A DNA stretch of 64,000 nt, from positions 124,001 through 188,000 of the forward strand of contig NZ_CP107783.1 in NCBI RefSeq assembly GCF_036345255.1, in the 5' to 3' direction. The notes beneath the pieces are model-generated. The model was not told where the DNA came from. It did no database searches and saw nothing but the letters and a program-made list of their open reading frames with translations. Positions 57,549 to 64,000 of this stretch are shown piece after piece; the first letter of the stretch is position 1, and every line of letters begins with the position of its first letter. Both the position numbers and the translations under genes were made by a program. The DNA is from Streptomyces sp. NBC_00569. Its GTDB lineage: Bacteria > Actinomycetota > Actinomycetes > Streptomycetales > Streptomycetaceae.

Positions 57549-58487
57549 TCATCGCTCCCGGCGCAAATGATTGGCAGGAATTTCGCGCGGCAGCCCGAAG
57601 CCGTCAAATACGCGCGGATCGGCGAACACCACGTTGCGCGTGATGCGGCCGCCGGTGACGGTGAAGACCTGCAGGGTGTGCAGACGGCGTTTGCCGCCGG
57701 GCTGCGGCGCGTACGCGGCGAGCGCAGGCTGCCCGTTGGAGGTCAGCGCCCGCATGCCCCATCCCGGGCCACGCATCGCGAACACTCGCTCTAGGAACCG
57801 TCCGTAGTCCCGGCTCCCCCGGTACCACAGCGGCACTGGCGGCATCTCCAGCACCGCGTCCTCGGCCAGGAGCTGCACCAGCGCGGGGACATCCGCCGCC
57901 TCGAACGCCTGCATGTACCGCTCGATGACCGAGCGCACCTCAGGATCATCCGGCTCGGTGACCGCACCCATATCGCCCACCTCGGCGAGGGCGGCGCGGG
58001 CGCGCTGCAGCGCGCTGTTGACCGCTGCGACCGTAGTCCCCAACTGCTCGGCGACCTCGGCGGCGGTGAACGCAAGCACCTCACGCAGCACCAGCACCGC
58101 CCGCTGCCGCGCCGGCAGGAGCTGCACCGCCGCCACCCACGCGAGCCGCAGATCGGCCCTGACCTCAATATCGAACCGCGCGTCGGGGAACGGCTCCAAC
58201 CAGGACACATCGGGTGCCGGTACCAGCGGCGCACCGGGATCGTCGCTGGGCATGCCCAGTCCGCACGGCAAAGGACGCCGACCGCGCCCCTCCAGTGCGG
58301 TCAGGCACGCATTGGTCGCGATCCGGTACAGCCAGGTTCGCACCGACGCGCGCGCCGGGTCGTACCGGTCGCGGGCCTTCCAGGCACGCAGCAGCGTCTC
58401 CTGCACCAGATCCTCGGCCTCGTGGAACGACCCCAGCATCCGGTAGCAGAACACCACCAACTCGCCCCGGTACGGCTCGAAGTCCAT
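57549..58487 (-). CDS. SigG-type ECF sigma factor with SnoaL-like domain
   Basis: 312 residues from ATG 58487. Region 2: VVFCYRMLGSFHEAEDLVQE TLLRAWKA, then ASVRTWLYRIATNACLTAL; region 4: LLPARQRAVLVLREVLAFTA AEVAEQLGTTVAAVNSALQR AR. After about residue 190 a SnoaL/NTF2-like domain follows (VIERYMQAFEAADVPALVQL, LWYRGSRDYGRFLERVF). This layout is the SigG (SigX5/ECF56-like) family, whose C-terminal domain modulates activity. Probably transcribed with the DHFR-like gene. Confidence 0.9.
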   Translation of the reverse strand: MDFEPYRGELVVFCYRMLGSFHEAEDLVQETLLRAWKARDRYDPARASVRTWLYRIATNACLTALEGRGRRPLPCGLGMPSDDPGAPLVPAPDVSWLEPFPDARFDIEVRADLRLAWVAAVQLLPARQRAVLVLREVLAFTAAEVAEQLGTTVAAVNSALQRARAALAEVGDMGAVTEPDDPEVRSVIERYMQAFEAADVPALVQLLAEDAVLEMPPVPLWYRGSRDYGRFLERVFAMRGPGWGMRALTSNGQPALAAYAPQPGGKRRLHTLQVFTVTGGRITRNVVFADPRVFDGFGLPREIPANHLRRER

Positions 58488-58658
58488 CGGCCTATCATGC
58501 CGCACAGCGGCCTCACGCCTAGGCGGGCCTCAGCAGGGTTCGCCGGGGCTTTGCACAGGCACCACTCGACGCCCCTCCCCGACAATGACCCTCTCTGCGA
58601 CCACATGCGGCGGTTGTGACTCCGGTCGCGTGACTGCAGACGGCTGGAGAGCGGGCGC

Positions 58659-58700
58659 GCGTCGGCCCGCCGGCACGAGGAAGAGCCGACGGGCCGACGC
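58659..58700 (-). terminator. 16-bp stem-loop terminator
   Basis: GCGTCGGCCCGCCGGC (58659-58674) and GCCGACGGGCCGACGC (58685-58700) pair at 15 of 16 positions around a 10-base loop. It lies between the PIG-L gene and the sigma gene and would terminate the PIG-L transcript. The remainder of 58488-58842 holds no gene. Confidence 0.85.
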
Positions 58701-58842
58701 CTCAACCTCGCACCCGCTGCCGATCGGCAGCCGTCCGTTCGCGACGGCCAGCCGGGCCGCGGCGCGAAGGGTCCCGCCGGGCCGGGCGCGAGTGGTCCCG
58801 TCGGGCCGGTGCTTCACATGCCCGGCACTTCGGGCGGGCGGG

Positions 58843-59676
58843 TCAGCGTAGGCCGGCGAAGAGATCGTTCTCGGGTACGGCCGCGCCGGTGGCGTCCTTG
58901 ACCCGTACGAAGGTCTCCATGCCCATCAATTCGCCGAACCTCTCCTTGCCCATCTTGAGGAAGAAGATGTTCTCGCCCTGACTGGCGTGCGCGGCCAGCG
59001 CGTCGAACTTCTGACCGCTGAACGCGGTGGTGTCCACCCACGTGGTGATCTCATCGTCGGGGAGGCCGATCTCGGCCAATGCGGCGGCCTCAGCGGGATC
59101 CGGCTCCGGCATGTCCTCATGAAACTCCCGCATGATCTCGCCGAACCGCTGCATCCCCGAGCGGGGCATCGTCGTCCAGTACACCTTCGGTGTCAGCTCG
59201 GTCATCTCCACCGCCGCCATCGTGATGCGGTGGGCCTGGATGTGGTCGGGGTGGCCGTAGAAGCCGTTCTCGTCATAGGTGACCACCACATCGGGCCGGT
59301 AGTGCCGCATGAGTTCCGCGAGACGGGCAGCGCCCTCCTCCACGGGGGTCTGCCAGAAGGAACCGGGGGCGTCGTTGCTCGGCCAGCCCGTCATCCCGGA
59401 GTCGGCGTAGTCCAGCATCTCCAGATCGCTGACCTTCAGGACGTCACAGCTCGCCTCGAGTTCTTGACGGCGCATCAAGGCGACAGCCGCCGGATCGTGT
59501 CCGGGATCGCCCGGCTTGACACCCCCCGGTCCATCACCGCAACCGCCGTCGGTACACGTCACGAGAACCGTGCGGATACCCTCCGCCGCATACCGCGCAA
59601 GGACCCCGCCGGTTCCGGTGGCCTCATCATCGGGGTGAGCGTGCACAGCCATCAGCGTCAAAGGCCGTTCAGTCAT
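58843..59676 (-). CDS. PIG-L family deacetylase (MshB/Mca-like)
   Basis: 277 residues from ATG 59676. The zinc motif AVHAHPDDEATGTGGVLARY (H-P-D-D) and the second site ENGFYGHPDHIQAHRITMAA (G-H-P-D-H) define LmbE/PIG-L amidases. The length and CTDGGCGDGP segment resemble mycothiol-pathway enzymes (GlcNAc-Ins deacetylase or mycothiol conjugate amidase), but the choice between these and other N-deacetylases cannot be made from sequence alone. Intact, monocistronic, followed by a terminator. Confidence 0.88.
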   Translation of the reverse strand: MTERPLTLMAVHAHPDDEATGTGGVLARYAAEGIRTVLVTCTDGGCGDGPGGVKPGDPGHDPAAVALMRRQELEASCDVLKVSDLEMLDYADSGMTGWPSNDAPGSFWQTPVEEGAARLAELMRHYRPDVVVTYDENGFYGHPDHIQAHRITMAAVEMTELTPKVYWTTMPRSGMQRFGEIMREFHEDMPEPDPAEAAALAEIGLPDDEITTWVDTTAFSGQKFDALAAHASQGENIFFLKMGKERFGELMGMETFVRVKDATGAAVPENDLFAGLR

Positions 59677-60997: not shown

Positions 60998-61423
60998 TCA
61001 CCGGAGAACGTGCAGACTCGCCGTCGCGAACACCGCTGTCACCCAGGTCCACAGCACGGCGAGAGCGACATGTCCGCCGGTGCGCAGGCGGTGGCCACGC
61101 CACAGGCGCGGGGAGAAGTAAGCGAACTCCATGATCCAGCGCAGGCCCCAGAAAAGAGTCTGGGCGCACAGCAGAAACGTAGGCAGGGGCGCGCCAGTGA
61201 GGAGGTCCGGAGCGAACGCCAGCGGGAGAGTGCCGAGCAGCGCGCAGGTCAGGGCGATGAAGACGAGGTGGGCGTAGGAGACCTGGCGTGTCAGCAGGCT
61301 GCTGGCGCGCAGATCGCCGGGCCAGCCCAGGACGCGCGGCAGCACGGTGTGCACCAGCCCCATGACGATGAGGGCCAGGCCGATCAGACGCAACTGGCCT
61401 GTCAGGGAGAAGAGTTGGGGCAT
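60998..61423 (-). CDS. four-helix membrane protein, unknown function
   Basis: 141 residues from ATG 61423. Four hydrophobic helices: LIGLALIVMGLVHTVLPRVL, AHLVFIALTCALLGTLPLAF, LPTFLLCAQTLFWGLRWIME and HVALAVLWTWVTAVFATASL. Last gene of a coupled operon; its start overlaps the methyltransferase stop by 22 bases. The family is not certain. It may host a lipid-linked step with its neighbours; that is inferred only from context. Confidence 0.78.
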   Translation of the reverse strand: MPQLFSLTGQLRLIGLALIVMGLVHTVLPRVLGWPGDLRASSLLTRQVSYAHLVFIALTCALLGTLPLAFAPDLLTGAPLPTFLLCAQTLFWGLRWIMEFAYFSPRLWRGHRLRTGGHVALAVLWTWVTAVFATASLHVLR

Positions 61424-62169
61424 GTCTCATCCTTGGTGAAGGCGAATGCCGTGATCAGGTGGGCGAGACGGCGCTCGGTCGTGGGGCGCAGTCCGGCGTG
61501 GGCGGCGAGGCGCAGCCATTCCGCGCGGGGCAGGAAGTGCCAGGCGCCGGGCCCGAACGCGGCCGTGTTCGCGATGTCCCTGAGGTGTTCGGTGAGGACG
61601 AGTGTGCCTCCGGGGCGCAGTATCCGGCCGCATTCGGTGAACAGTTCCTCCCGATCTCGTGCCCGACGTAGTTCGTGTGCGGCGAAGACCAGCAGGACCG
61701 CGTCGGTCCCGGCTGTGGGAAGCGGCAGCGTGTCGGGGCGGCCCGGCAGGGCGTGGGCGGGCGGCGGCACGCGGCGCCGTGCCCGGCGTATGGAGCCCTC
61801 ACTGGTCAGTGCCGGGTCGTACAGATCGACGGCGGATCGCCGTGCGGCGGGCCAGCGTGCGGCGAGAGGGGCACTCACCTCGTCGAGTCCACAGCTCACC
61901 ACCACGTACGCGGACGGGGTGCGGGGCAGCAGTGACGCCAGCCAGTGGTAGGCGTACAGGTCCGAGCGGTCGTAGACGTACCAACTGGCCGCCGTGGCCG
62001 TGCCGAGAAGGGTGATTGCCGCTGCGGATCCGGAACGGGCAAGGCGGCGCAGAGGGCGTGGCAGGTGCCCTACGACGGCGGCCGCGCCCGCTGCGGTGGC
62101 CAGGCCCGCCGCGTACTGAGGCCAGTTGTAGGCGATGACGTCGCGCGCGCCTGAGTGTCGTCCGCTCAT
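61402..62169 (-). CDS. membrane-anchored class I SAM-dependent methyltransferase
   Basis: 255 residues from ATG 62169. The first 85 residues contain two hydrophobic segments (YAAGLATAAGAAAVVGHLP; GSAAAITLLGTATAASWYVY). The methyltransferase domain follows: SAYVVVSCGLDEVSAPLAAR is a loose motif I, DAVLLVFAAHELRRARDREE and ECGRILRPGGTLVLTEHLRD match motifs III to post-III. The ATG overlaps the DUF2071 stop (ATGA). Substrate unknown. The membrane anchor and the DUF3419 partner suggest a lipid-related acceptor, by inference. Confidence 0.82.
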   Translation of the reverse strand: MSGRHSGARDVIAYNWPQYAAGLATAAGAAAVVGHLPRPLRRLARSGSAAAITLLGTATAASWYVYDRSDLYAYHWLASLLPRTPSAYVVVSCGLDEVSAPLAARWPAARRSAVDLYDPALTSEGSIRRARRRVPPPAHALPGRPDTLPLPTAGTDAVLLVFAAHELRRARDREELFTECGRILRPGGTLVLTEHLRDIANTAAFGPGAWHFLPRAEWLRLAAHAGLRPTTERRLAHLITAFAFTKDETCPNSSP

Positions 62170-62957
62170 CGCCGGCCGCCGCTCTCGCTGCGACGCACCC
62201 CACGGTGCCAGCCGTAGTCGACGCCGTCGATGTGGAATGCGTTGGCGAGCACAGGTCGGGTTCCGGCGAACGGGCCGTGATCGAAGAAGGTCAGACGGCG
62301 CACGTCAACCGTCACGGGTTGCGGGTCCCATCGCGTGCGGAATGCCTTGATGACGATCACGGAGCGGGTCTGTGGCTCGTACTCGAAGGTGTACGGCAGT
62401 GGTCCGGCGAAGCGGCGTGCGGCGCGCTCGTCGGCGAACGGGCTGTTCGGCGGTAGCGGCGCCGGGGTTTTGCGCAGGTCGGCGCGCACATCCAGATCGG
62501 CGTGCCCGTCGGCGGTGTCGACGCAGAACTCCAAGGCGTTGCCCGTGACCTGCGAGCGTATGCGGGCCAGGCGGTAGTTGTAGCGAGTGAGCAGGTTGCC
62601 GCCGAGTTGCATGAAGCGGGTGTTGGTGTCGCTGCGCAGGATGCGCAGGCCACGCATGGTGCGGCCTCCAGGGGTGGGGAAGCGGGTGAAGACGCGGTAG
62701 CCGGTCAGCAGGAAGTCGCGGCCCAAGCGAGCGGGCAGCCCGGCCGGCCGCAGGTCTCGGGTATCGACCACGGCGGCGGCCACGAAGCCGTACTCCACAT
62801 CCTGTGCACTGGCTCGGTAGGTGTCGAGTTCCAGGAACGGCGGCACGAGGGGGCGCAGCACCTCGGCGGGCAGGGCGTAAGTCAGGACGAGGGAATGCGC
62901 GAAGTGGCTGCGTATCGATATGGGGTGACGTTGTATCAGGTACGACGGGTTCCTCAC
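62166..62957 (-). CDS. DUF2071 (acetoacetate-decarboxylase-like fold) protein
   Basis: 263 residues from GTG 62957, behind AAGGA. HPISIRSHFAHSLVLTYALP AEVLRPLVPPFLELDTY is the typical DUF2071 opening. The core continues with GRDFLLTGYRVFTRFPTPGG RTMRGLRILRSDTN, and the C-terminus ends VLANAFHIDGVDYGWHRGV. The family has no established reaction. It overlaps its upstream neighbour by four bases (GTGA) and its downstream neighbour by four (ATGA), so it belongs to the operon. Confidence 0.78.
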   Translation of the reverse strand: MRNPSYLIQRHPISIRSHFAHSLVLTYALPAEVLRPLVPPFLELDTYRASAQDVEYGFVAAAVVDTRDLRPAGLPARLGRDFLLTGYRVFTRFPTPGGRTMRGLRILRSDTNTRFMQLGGNLLTRYNYRLARIRSQVTGNALEFCVDTADGHADLDVRADLRKTPAPLPPNSPFADERAARRFAGPLPYTFEYEPQTRSVIVIKAFRTRWDPQPVTVDVRRLTFFDHGPFAGTRPVLANAFHIDGVDYGWHRGVRRSESGGRR

Positions 62958-63886
62958 GGATCGATCCTTCTGTCGTTGGTGCCGTCCGGGTTTGCGCCCA
63001 GACGGACTACGCGTACGACGCCCCACAGCGCGGAGCGGTCCTGTGCGGCCCAGCCGGCTCCGGCCGGTCCCGGTTCGCGGAAGCTGCGCAGGACGACGAT
63101 GCCGCCGGGGCGTACTGCGTGGCGTACGGCTGCGCGCAGTTGTCCGGCGAAGGCCGGGCCTGGACCGTCGAGCACGTTCGACAGTGTTGCGGCGTCGTAT
63201 CCGCCGCGCGGCGCTCGCTCCAGGACGTCCACCACGTCGCCCTGGACGAGGCGTACATCCGGAGCGTGCACCGGCTCCGCGTCGGGCTGTTCGGCGCCCA
63301 CGAACAGCCGCCACAGCCAGGGATTGCGGACATTGGGGTGGCGGGCGACCGTCCGCTCCAGGCGCTGCCGGAGCACTTCGTCGAAGCGCGCGGGGACCAC
63401 TGACGCGAATGAGGGAAGCAGCGCCATCGCGAGCGCCCCGCCCGGCCGCAGGGACCATCGCATCAGGCGGCGCAGCCCGGGTCCGTCCAGGTCGCTGCGC
63501 CAGCACCGGACCTGCTGGACGGGATCGTCCAGAGCTAGGAAGCCGCGCAGCGCGGCCTCACGCCAGGCAGGCAGCAGTGTCCCGGCCACGCCGCGCCCCA
63601 GTCGCATCAGTGTCTCCGCGGCGCCTTCCACGCTCGCGCCGCCCGCAAGGCGGGCGCGGGCATAGGCGAGCTGCACCGGGTTGACATCTACGGCCGTCAC
63701 GTCATGGCCGGCCTGACTCAGGGCGGCCGCAGTGTCGCCCGCGGAGGCGATGCACAGCACCCGCGAGCGCGATGCCGGCAGGACGCCGAGCTCGATGCCG
63801 TAGTCCTCGTACATCCGCCCGAACAGCAGACGCGGGCCTCCGAAACCACCGAGGATCCGGCCACGGGTCCATGGGGTGGCACTCAT
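62954..63886 (-). CDS. DUF3419 (BtaA-like) SAM-dependent transferase
   Basis: 310 residues from ATG 63886. LLFGRMYEDYGIELGVLPAS, RVLCIASAGDTAAALSQAGH and DVTAVDVNPVQLAYARARLA form a Rossmann SAM site of the DUF3419 type. Later come SDLDGPGLRRLMRWSLRPGG, NPWLWRLFVG, DVVDVLERAPRGGYDAATLS NVLD and PGGIVVLRSF. The best studied DUF3419 protein, BtaA, transfers the 3-amino-3-carboxypropyl group of SAM to diacylglycerol in betaine-lipid synthesis. This one is shorter than BtaA and may use another acceptor. Coupled on both sides. Confidence 0.83.
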   Translation of the reverse strand: MSATPWTRGRILGGFGGPRLLFGRMYEDYGIELGVLPASRSRVLCIASAGDTAAALSQAGHDVTAVDVNPVQLAYARARLAGGASVEGAAETLMRLGRGVAGTLLPAWREAALRGFLALDDPVQQVRCWRSDLDGPGLRRLMRWSLRPGGALAMALLPSFASVVPARFDEVLRQRLERTVARHPNVRNPWLWRLFVGAEQPDAEPVHAPDVRLVQGDVVDVLERAPRGGYDAATLSNVLDGPGPAFAGQLRAAVRHAVRPGGIVVLRSFREPGPAGAGWAAQDRSALWGVVRVVRLGANPDGTNDRRIDP

Positions 63887-64000
63887 CGGGCCGCCGCCTT
63901 CGCAGAGGATTCCGCGACCATCCAGACCAGCGCGACGAAGGCCAGATTCTGCGTGAGCAGACGCCCGGGCTCATCGATCTGCCCCGGACTGAACAGCAGG
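63883..64000 (-). CDS. partial gene at the window edge, membrane-like C-terminus
   Basis: Only the last 38 residues are in the window: LLFSPGQIDEPGRLLTQNLA FVALVWMVAESSAKAAAR. FVALVWMVA is hydrophobic enough for a helix end. The stop overlaps the next start (ATGA), so it is the upstream member of the operon. Family cannot be assigned from this fragment. Confidence 0.6.
   Translation of the reverse strand, partial: LLFSPGQIDEPGRLLTQNLAFVALVWMVAESSAKAAAR

Follow-up and report, generated by a model that had tools for sequence, protein, structure and literature searches.

Operon organization and gene content

We analyzed a 64,000-nucleotide window of Streptomyces sp. NBC_00569 (contig NZ_CP107783.1), the whole stretch corresponding to bases 124001–188000 of a 10.32-Mb single-contig chromosome, and focused on five minus-strand genes at its end. 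They form an operon ~185–188 kb from one contig end and encode, in order, a DoxX_3 membrane protein, a BtaA-like DUF3419 protein, a DUF2071 protein, an S-adenosylmethionine (SAM)-dependent methyltransferase, and a small membrane protein referred to here as protein E. See Table 1 for coordinates. The first gene runs past the window edge and was completed from the sequence beyond it (locus L003, where window coordinate = L003 + 56000). The full gene extends to 64317 (L003:7883–8317) and gives a 144-residue protein from a GTG start. Pfam scores were 55.7 bits for DoxX_3 (cut-off 25), 48.7 for DUF3419 (28.2), 42.3 for DUF2071 (27), and 34.7 for Methyltransf_11 (21.2). An earlier note on this DNA had described five overlapping minus-strand genes, and we confirm it: the methyltransferase and E genes share 22 bases, the other three junctions share 4 bases each, and the gene cut by the edge is DoxX_3.

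Table 1. Genes of the operon (window coordinates) and palindrome sites in the same genome
Feature	Position	Strand	Description
DoxX_3 (PF13781) membrane protein	63883..64000, cut by window edge	-	First gene of the operon; Pfam
DUF3419 (PF11899) BtaA-like protein	62954..63886	-	310 aa; predicted fold of a class I SAM transferase that has a helical insert; Pfam and predicted fold
DUF2071 (PF09844) protein	62166..62957	-	263 aa; GTG start; acetoacetate decarboxylase-like clan, as stated in part of PMC4520260
SAM-dependent methyltransferase (Methyltransf_11, PF08241)	61402..62169	-	255 aa; N-terminal part weakly hydrophobic
Four-helix membrane protein E	60998..61423	-	141 aa; without Pfam family
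Palindrome	Upstream of cassette		
Palindrome	~41 bases before gene		TIGR01777 oxidoreductase with DUF1731
Palindromes	28 and 34 bases before genes		78-aa and 174-aa membrane-protein-like frames
Tandem palindromes	74 and 28 bases before gene		136-aa membrane-protein-like frame, then DCC1-like thiol oxidoreductase and TetR-family regulator
Palindrome			Site without clear gene

Conservation and distribution of the cassette

We compared 38 fetched loci (36 neighborhoods, L005, and L119, a linear plasmid of Streptomyces sp. Caat 7-52) together with the window's own locus. Five loci with partial DUF3419 genes (L104–L107, L117) and three distant loci (L101–L103) were set aside, giving 31 loci with an intact DUF3419 gene. 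The gene order recurs in other genomes, so the lack of a conserved neighborhood that the earlier note had named as refuting is not seen: DoxX_3, DUF3419, DUF2071, methyltransferase, and E follow one another on the same strand in 30 of the 31, window included. The arrangement is not due to chance, because homologs preserve both order and strand. The exception, L089, has no adjoining E gene, and the same genome carries a methyltransferase–E pair elsewhere. Exact 4-base overlaps, counted with mechanically chosen start codons, are found in other loci at the DoxX/DUF3419 (26/30), DUF3419/DUF2071 (23/30), DUF2071/methyltransferase (13/30), and methyltransferase/E (25/29) junctions. All five genes fall within simple length limits in 27 of the 31 loci. 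One gene was matched in two pieces in L108 (DoxX) and in L111 (methyltransferase), and in a Nocardiopsis cassette (L100:6075–8245) ~1.4 kb interrupts the methyltransferase gene. The five loci set aside carry DUF3419 fragments only, and near the three distant relatives the other four genes are absent. A contig-scan match, L006, found beside the true relative L005, was discarded; by eye, its frame resembles a spermidine-synthase-like protein.

The cassette occurs in scattered soil actinobacteria. The closest named relatives are Streptomyces at 91–93% identity. Within Streptomyces, the DUF3419 search matched 12 of 199 genomes at E 1e-3. Four of these are full length (our own included), one is a fragment at 6e-10, and seven are weak (E 4.5e-5 to 9.5e-4), with their neighborhoods left out. 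The family-level search matched 28 of 394 genomes at 1e-10, four of them partially, in 5 of 17 genera; at class level the count was 7 of 394, and in the genus taken as Kitasatospora 7 of 21, search center included. A profile search of the phylum matched 55 of 396 genomes at E 1e-3, nearly all weakly; at 1e-10 only our own genome and G345 remained, and only these two entered the neighborhood comparison. Genus assignments are provisional, with g238 taken as Streptacidiphilus and g280 as Nocardiopsis. Contigs of equal length (7240, 5475, 6697, and 41264 bases) turned up in separate searches, a suggestive sign only that DUF3419 may sit on one contig with an E or methyltransferase gene in less closely related organisms as well.

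The operon genes are under purifying selection, with Nei-Gojobori ratios of nonsynonymous to synonymous substitution (dN/dS) of 0.15–0.34 for the window genes against four relatives. Pairwise distances among the five proteins correlate at 0.75–0.94 across 27 loci, which is the expectation for genes moved or inherited together. Their surroundings are variable. Disregarding frames that overlap the operon, no neighbor family recurs in more than 5 of 35 loci, and as far as seen, no upstream gene set puts the operon in a known unrelated pathway, in keeping with the earlier note. For the families that reach five loci, synteny is seen within genera g248 and g251; four further families, such as a SpoIIE-type phosphatase (four Streptomyces loci) and a transposase-like protein, are each found in four loci or in fewer genera. 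The cassette probably moves as one unit by horizontal transfer.

A sporadic, arm- and plasmid-located cassette could also serve anti-phage defense, and one PADLOC match was obtained (mad2, E 1.2e-6). However, this match reaches only 25.7 bits and covers positions 294–426 of a 492-position model, and the other four proteins match no defense model at E 0.01. We consider a defense role very improbable.

The DUF3419 protein and its relatives

Our reference was the Rhizobium leguminosarum protein WP_017961320.1 (L123), presumed to be BtaA from its family and its neighbor. This protein scores 380.8 bits against PF11899. A profile of three rhizobial BtaA copies aligned with the DUF3419 protein of the window over 256 columns (probability 95.5, E 1.4e-8), and the predicted structure is a confident SAM-transferase fold. 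With the same Pfam family and homology along its length, the protein is a shortened, distant BtaA homolog. The earlier note named a DUF3419 protein without SAM and acceptor pockets as refuting; for the SAM half, the modeled fold and the homology speak against such a loss. No solved BtaA structure was among the listed fold matches.

Distant DUF3419 proteins keep other company. On a mycobacterial linear plasmid (L120:9470–15131), one is found with an iron-containing redox enzyme, a GNAT protein, and an RND transporter. Another (L102:8566–11468) is followed by a frame whose start closely resembles the L120 GNAT protein. On a Roseinatronobacter plasmid (L122:141–7231), a DUF3419 gene stands in a row with genes for a UbiA prenyltransferase and for PEP/pyruvate-binding and AMP-binding proteins. 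This set may be a further pathway that transfers the 3-amino-3-carboxypropyl (acp) group of SAM.

Acp groups are added to small molecules in nocardicin and in metallophores. The cassette could likewise add acp to a soluble specialized metabolite, while its membrane proteins would handle export or a redox reaction at the membrane. The distant relatives in sets that look like small-molecule pathways (UbiA/PEP-pyruvate-binding/AMP-binding; iron redox enzyme/GNAT/RND) and the sporadic, partly plasmid-borne distribution agree with this. However, the cassette has no activating, carrier, or peptide-bond enzyme and no conserved neighbor family, and at least two of its five proteins are membrane proteins. 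Overall, we find a soluble product unlikely.

The other four proteins

The methyltransferase domain described in the earlier note is present. The membrane anchor given to it there is weak at best: the N-terminal segment reaches a maximum hydropathy of 1.18 (19-residue window), six homologs range from 1.1 to 1.7, and two of the six have no hydropathy peak before residue 40. Like BtaB, the enzyme is a SAM-dependent class I methyltransferase that shares an operon with a DUF3419 gene. It shows no useful profile match to the presumed BtaB: against the methyltransferase gene adjoining the presumed BtaA (L123:4435–5109), a single sequence and a weak test, the match was 4% over 41 columns. The gene after DUF3419 is DUF2071 here, and the methyltransferase comes next.

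The DUF2071 protein scores above the family cut-off and belongs to a subfamily of the cassette's own, in which an alignment of 14 sequences shows many invariant residues. Its best PDB sequence match has an E value of 0.43. The family's clan is described, in the part of PMC4520260 that treats it, as acetoacetate decarboxylase-like, with DUF2071 lacking the Schiff-base lysine.

Protein E is, as the earlier note had it, a four-helix membrane protein; the AlphaFold2 model has a predicted local distance difference test score of 94.4 and four long helices. Fold matches are generic four-helix bundles. An alignment of 57 sequences shows invariant His25, Arg46, His52, Arg95, and Trp92/108/125/127 and yields no convincing Pfam family (best E 0.0036), and no relation to DoxX_3 was found by profile. 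Among scored candidates, 171 relatives were obtained at E 1e-3, and the named ones among the 120 matches listed are all actinobacterial. The DoxX_3 protein matches its family over the full length; it differs in being a single-domain protein whose gene is coupled so closely to DUF3419.

A separable triad of DUF2071, methyltransferase, and E

With a profile of protein E, matches came from 34 of 297 genomes searched in the family and 3 of 296 in the class, our own counted in both. Eight of the 34 were not among the family-level DUF3419 matches, their coverage by that search being judged from genome labels. Three of these eight loci carry an intact triad of DUF2071, methyltransferase, and E (L161, L163, L165), and a fourth carries the triad with a 31-residue DUF3419 relic (L159). 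The sets in L160, L162, and L164 are incomplete, and L166 lies at a contig end. Furthermore, six plasmid records, some of them perhaps the same plasmid resequenced, have DUF2071, methyltransferase, and E, and only one has a DUF3419 match. Of the five others, pSA3239 and a relative were read, and in both the triad comes after an ArsR-type gene. DoxX is absent from L125 and L126, the only plasmid loci checked, and was not searched in the plasmid collection. The dN/dS between the two plasmid triad copies is 0.16–0.27, indicating clear constraint. In the other direction, no intact DUF3419 gene of this subfamily was found without DUF2071 and the methyltransferase (31/31, with the methyltransferase of L100 split). 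Most simply, the triad would work first or alone, and the DUF3419 step would depend on it.

Since some genomes and plasmids carry the triad but no intact DUF3419 gene, methylation need not follow a BtaA-like step. The earlier proposal of BtaA-like transfer followed by N-methylation is not supported, given this point and the poor match to one presumed BtaB. A rival reading is a betaine-lipid (DGTS) operon, in which the DUF3419 protein would make diacylglyceryl-homoserine, the methyltransferase would trimethylate it, and phosphate would be saved. The PF11899 score, the profile homology with the presumed BtaA, a methyltransferase within the same operon, and the membrane proteins all favor such an operon. 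However, the 41-column, 4% match, a subfamily member of 310 rather than 414 residues, the triad found on its own, and a PHO box not above background (see below) argue against it, and we hold it to be improbable. The canonical betaine-lipid operon is unsupported because the methyltransferase has no useful match to the presumed BtaB in this single-sequence comparison. The BtaA-like enzyme here appears to lie outside the BtaA/BtaB pair.

A shared palindrome upstream of the operon

The palindrome TTGAACGCGTTCAA lies beyond the window at 64335–64348 and starts 31 bases before the DoxX GTG. With two mismatches allowed, 0.03 matches are expected in L003. Relative to the DoxX start, 18 of the 30 other intact loci (19/31 with the window) have the form TTGAAC-NN-GTTCAA somewhere from −350 to +60, as do three of the five DUF3419-fragment loci. 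All four chromosomal triads (L159, L161, L163, L165) have it ahead of DUF2071, at distances of 129 to 319 bases, and L167 also has a site. No other site was found in the 636,842 bases of 35 other cassette or fragment loci. Full and triad-only operons appear tied to one control by the shared palindrome.

Our own genome has seven sites versus none for the reversed control (Table 1; gene starts called mechanically). The gene set behind the tandem palindromes (G000:C1:4370093–4371920; L178:6594–8421) is likely the home of the regulator, and its TetR-family protein (G000:C1:4371102–4371920) probably binds the palindrome and would control its own operon and the cassette. The genes sharing the palindrome hint at membrane or redox stress, not phosphate limitation.

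Two known operators were rejected. The palindrome centers on 2 bases, whereas the LexA box has a center of 4 bases. For the PHO box consensus, the window's best score was 8/14 and the highest among 34 other loci was 11, no better than the 8–12 given by 200 shuffles of the window stretch, and phosphate-limitation control was set aside.

These operator sites bear on a stress or detoxification role, in which the DUF3419 protein would be another methyltransferase, the set would methylate or reduce quinone-like or other lipophilic poisons, and DoxX and E would be quinone-linked membrane partners. Such a role would fit the operator that the cassette shares with a TIGR01777 oxidoreductase, with small membrane-protein frames, and with a DCC1-like thiol oxidoreductase in our own genome, and it would also fit the linked TetR- and ArsR-type regulators and the sporadic distribution. 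However, DUF3419 homology points to an acp transferase family, the inducer is not known, and the regulon consists of sequence matches in one genome. We regard detoxification as rather unlikely.

Proposed function

Our preferred reading, tentative and somewhat less than an even bet, is a mobile cassette working at the membrane, where it would both methylate a lipophilic acceptor and attach acp from SAM. The five genes would form one self-contained operon acting at the membrane and probably spread horizontally. The core of DUF2071, methyltransferase, and E would make, hold, or methylate the acceptor. DoxX_3 may keep the DUF3419 protein at the membrane, and the DUF3419 protein would then move the acp group of SAM onto the acceptor, releasing methylthioadenosine and giving an amino-acid-headed, lipid-like product. 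Both in the genome of the window and in most Kitasatospora loci, the operon carries the TTGAAC-NN-GTTCAA operator that small membrane-protein and redox genes also have. The modified lipid headgroup of the earlier note survives in this changed form, without the canonical betaine-lipid route and with a lipid product that is suggested rather than seen; overall, its interpretation is partly supported.

Several points weigh against the preferred reading. Fold and homology cannot separate acp transfer from methyl transfer. The DUF3419 protein is ~100 residues shorter than the presumed BtaA (310 versus 414), shares 23% identity with it, and sits in another operon. The rhizobial segment containing GLLGRFIGAAH, a feature we picked from the rhizobial copies, is gapped in five aligned subfamily members, and the best Foldseek match in the PDB reaches only E 8e-4 and a template modeling score of 0.28. 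Chromosomal triad-only copies show weaker constraint (dN/dS 0.27–0.72; methyltransferase 0.49–0.72). These operons may be decaying, and loss of the first genes may be all that lies behind the asymmetry between triad and DUF3419. As for control, the palindrome was spotted in the data before being counted or tested. Twelve of the 31 cassettes lack it (five from Streptomyces, four from g248/g251, and three from Nocardiopsis), as do two of the five fragment loci, the incomplete sets of L160, L162, and L164, and the two plasmid triads that were read. One site in our own genome has no clear gene.

A bolder version of the proposal, which we think doubtful though worth stating, is that a mobile actinobacterial operon makes a new acp-headed, methylated membrane lipid or isoprenoid through a trimmed BtaA and a DUF2071 enzyme, and became part of a TetR-controlled membrane regulon of the chromosome through the operator that it carries. 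The cassette offers a compact route to the functions of DUF2071, DoxX_3, an unclassified four-helix family, and a BtaA-like enzyme apart from BtaB. An amino-acid-headed lipid, should that be the product, would be a membrane lipid that our searches of open-access papers did not show for these actinobacteria, and the shared operator suggests which regulator's removal would let it appear. In those searches, no title listed described such an operon in Streptomyces, and nothing joined DoxX with DUF2071 or homoserine lipid with an actinomycete; DUF3419 papers concern, by title, algae, betaine lipids and seed plants, and a smut fungus. One match for betaine lipids and Streptomyces merely cited a fungal compound, and papers on YqjF, which deal with the E. 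coli gene so named, were set aside. Ornithine lipids are named, in a portion of PMC7937720, as the commonest phosphorus-free lipids of Streptomyces.

Other features near the operon

Downstream of the operon and on the same strand, window positions 57549–59676 hold genes for a PIG-L deacetylase and for an extracytoplasmic function sigma factor whose C-terminal domain is SnoaL-like. Among other cassette loci, the deacetylase matches none and the sigma factor has one distant match. Further upstream of the operon are unrelated genes and frames that resemble, by eye, transposase pieces. In five loci (L096, L097, L098, L105, L116), one to three copies of TTTCACGTGAAA, which we take to resemble parS chromosome-partition sites, lie 54–141 bases before the operon.

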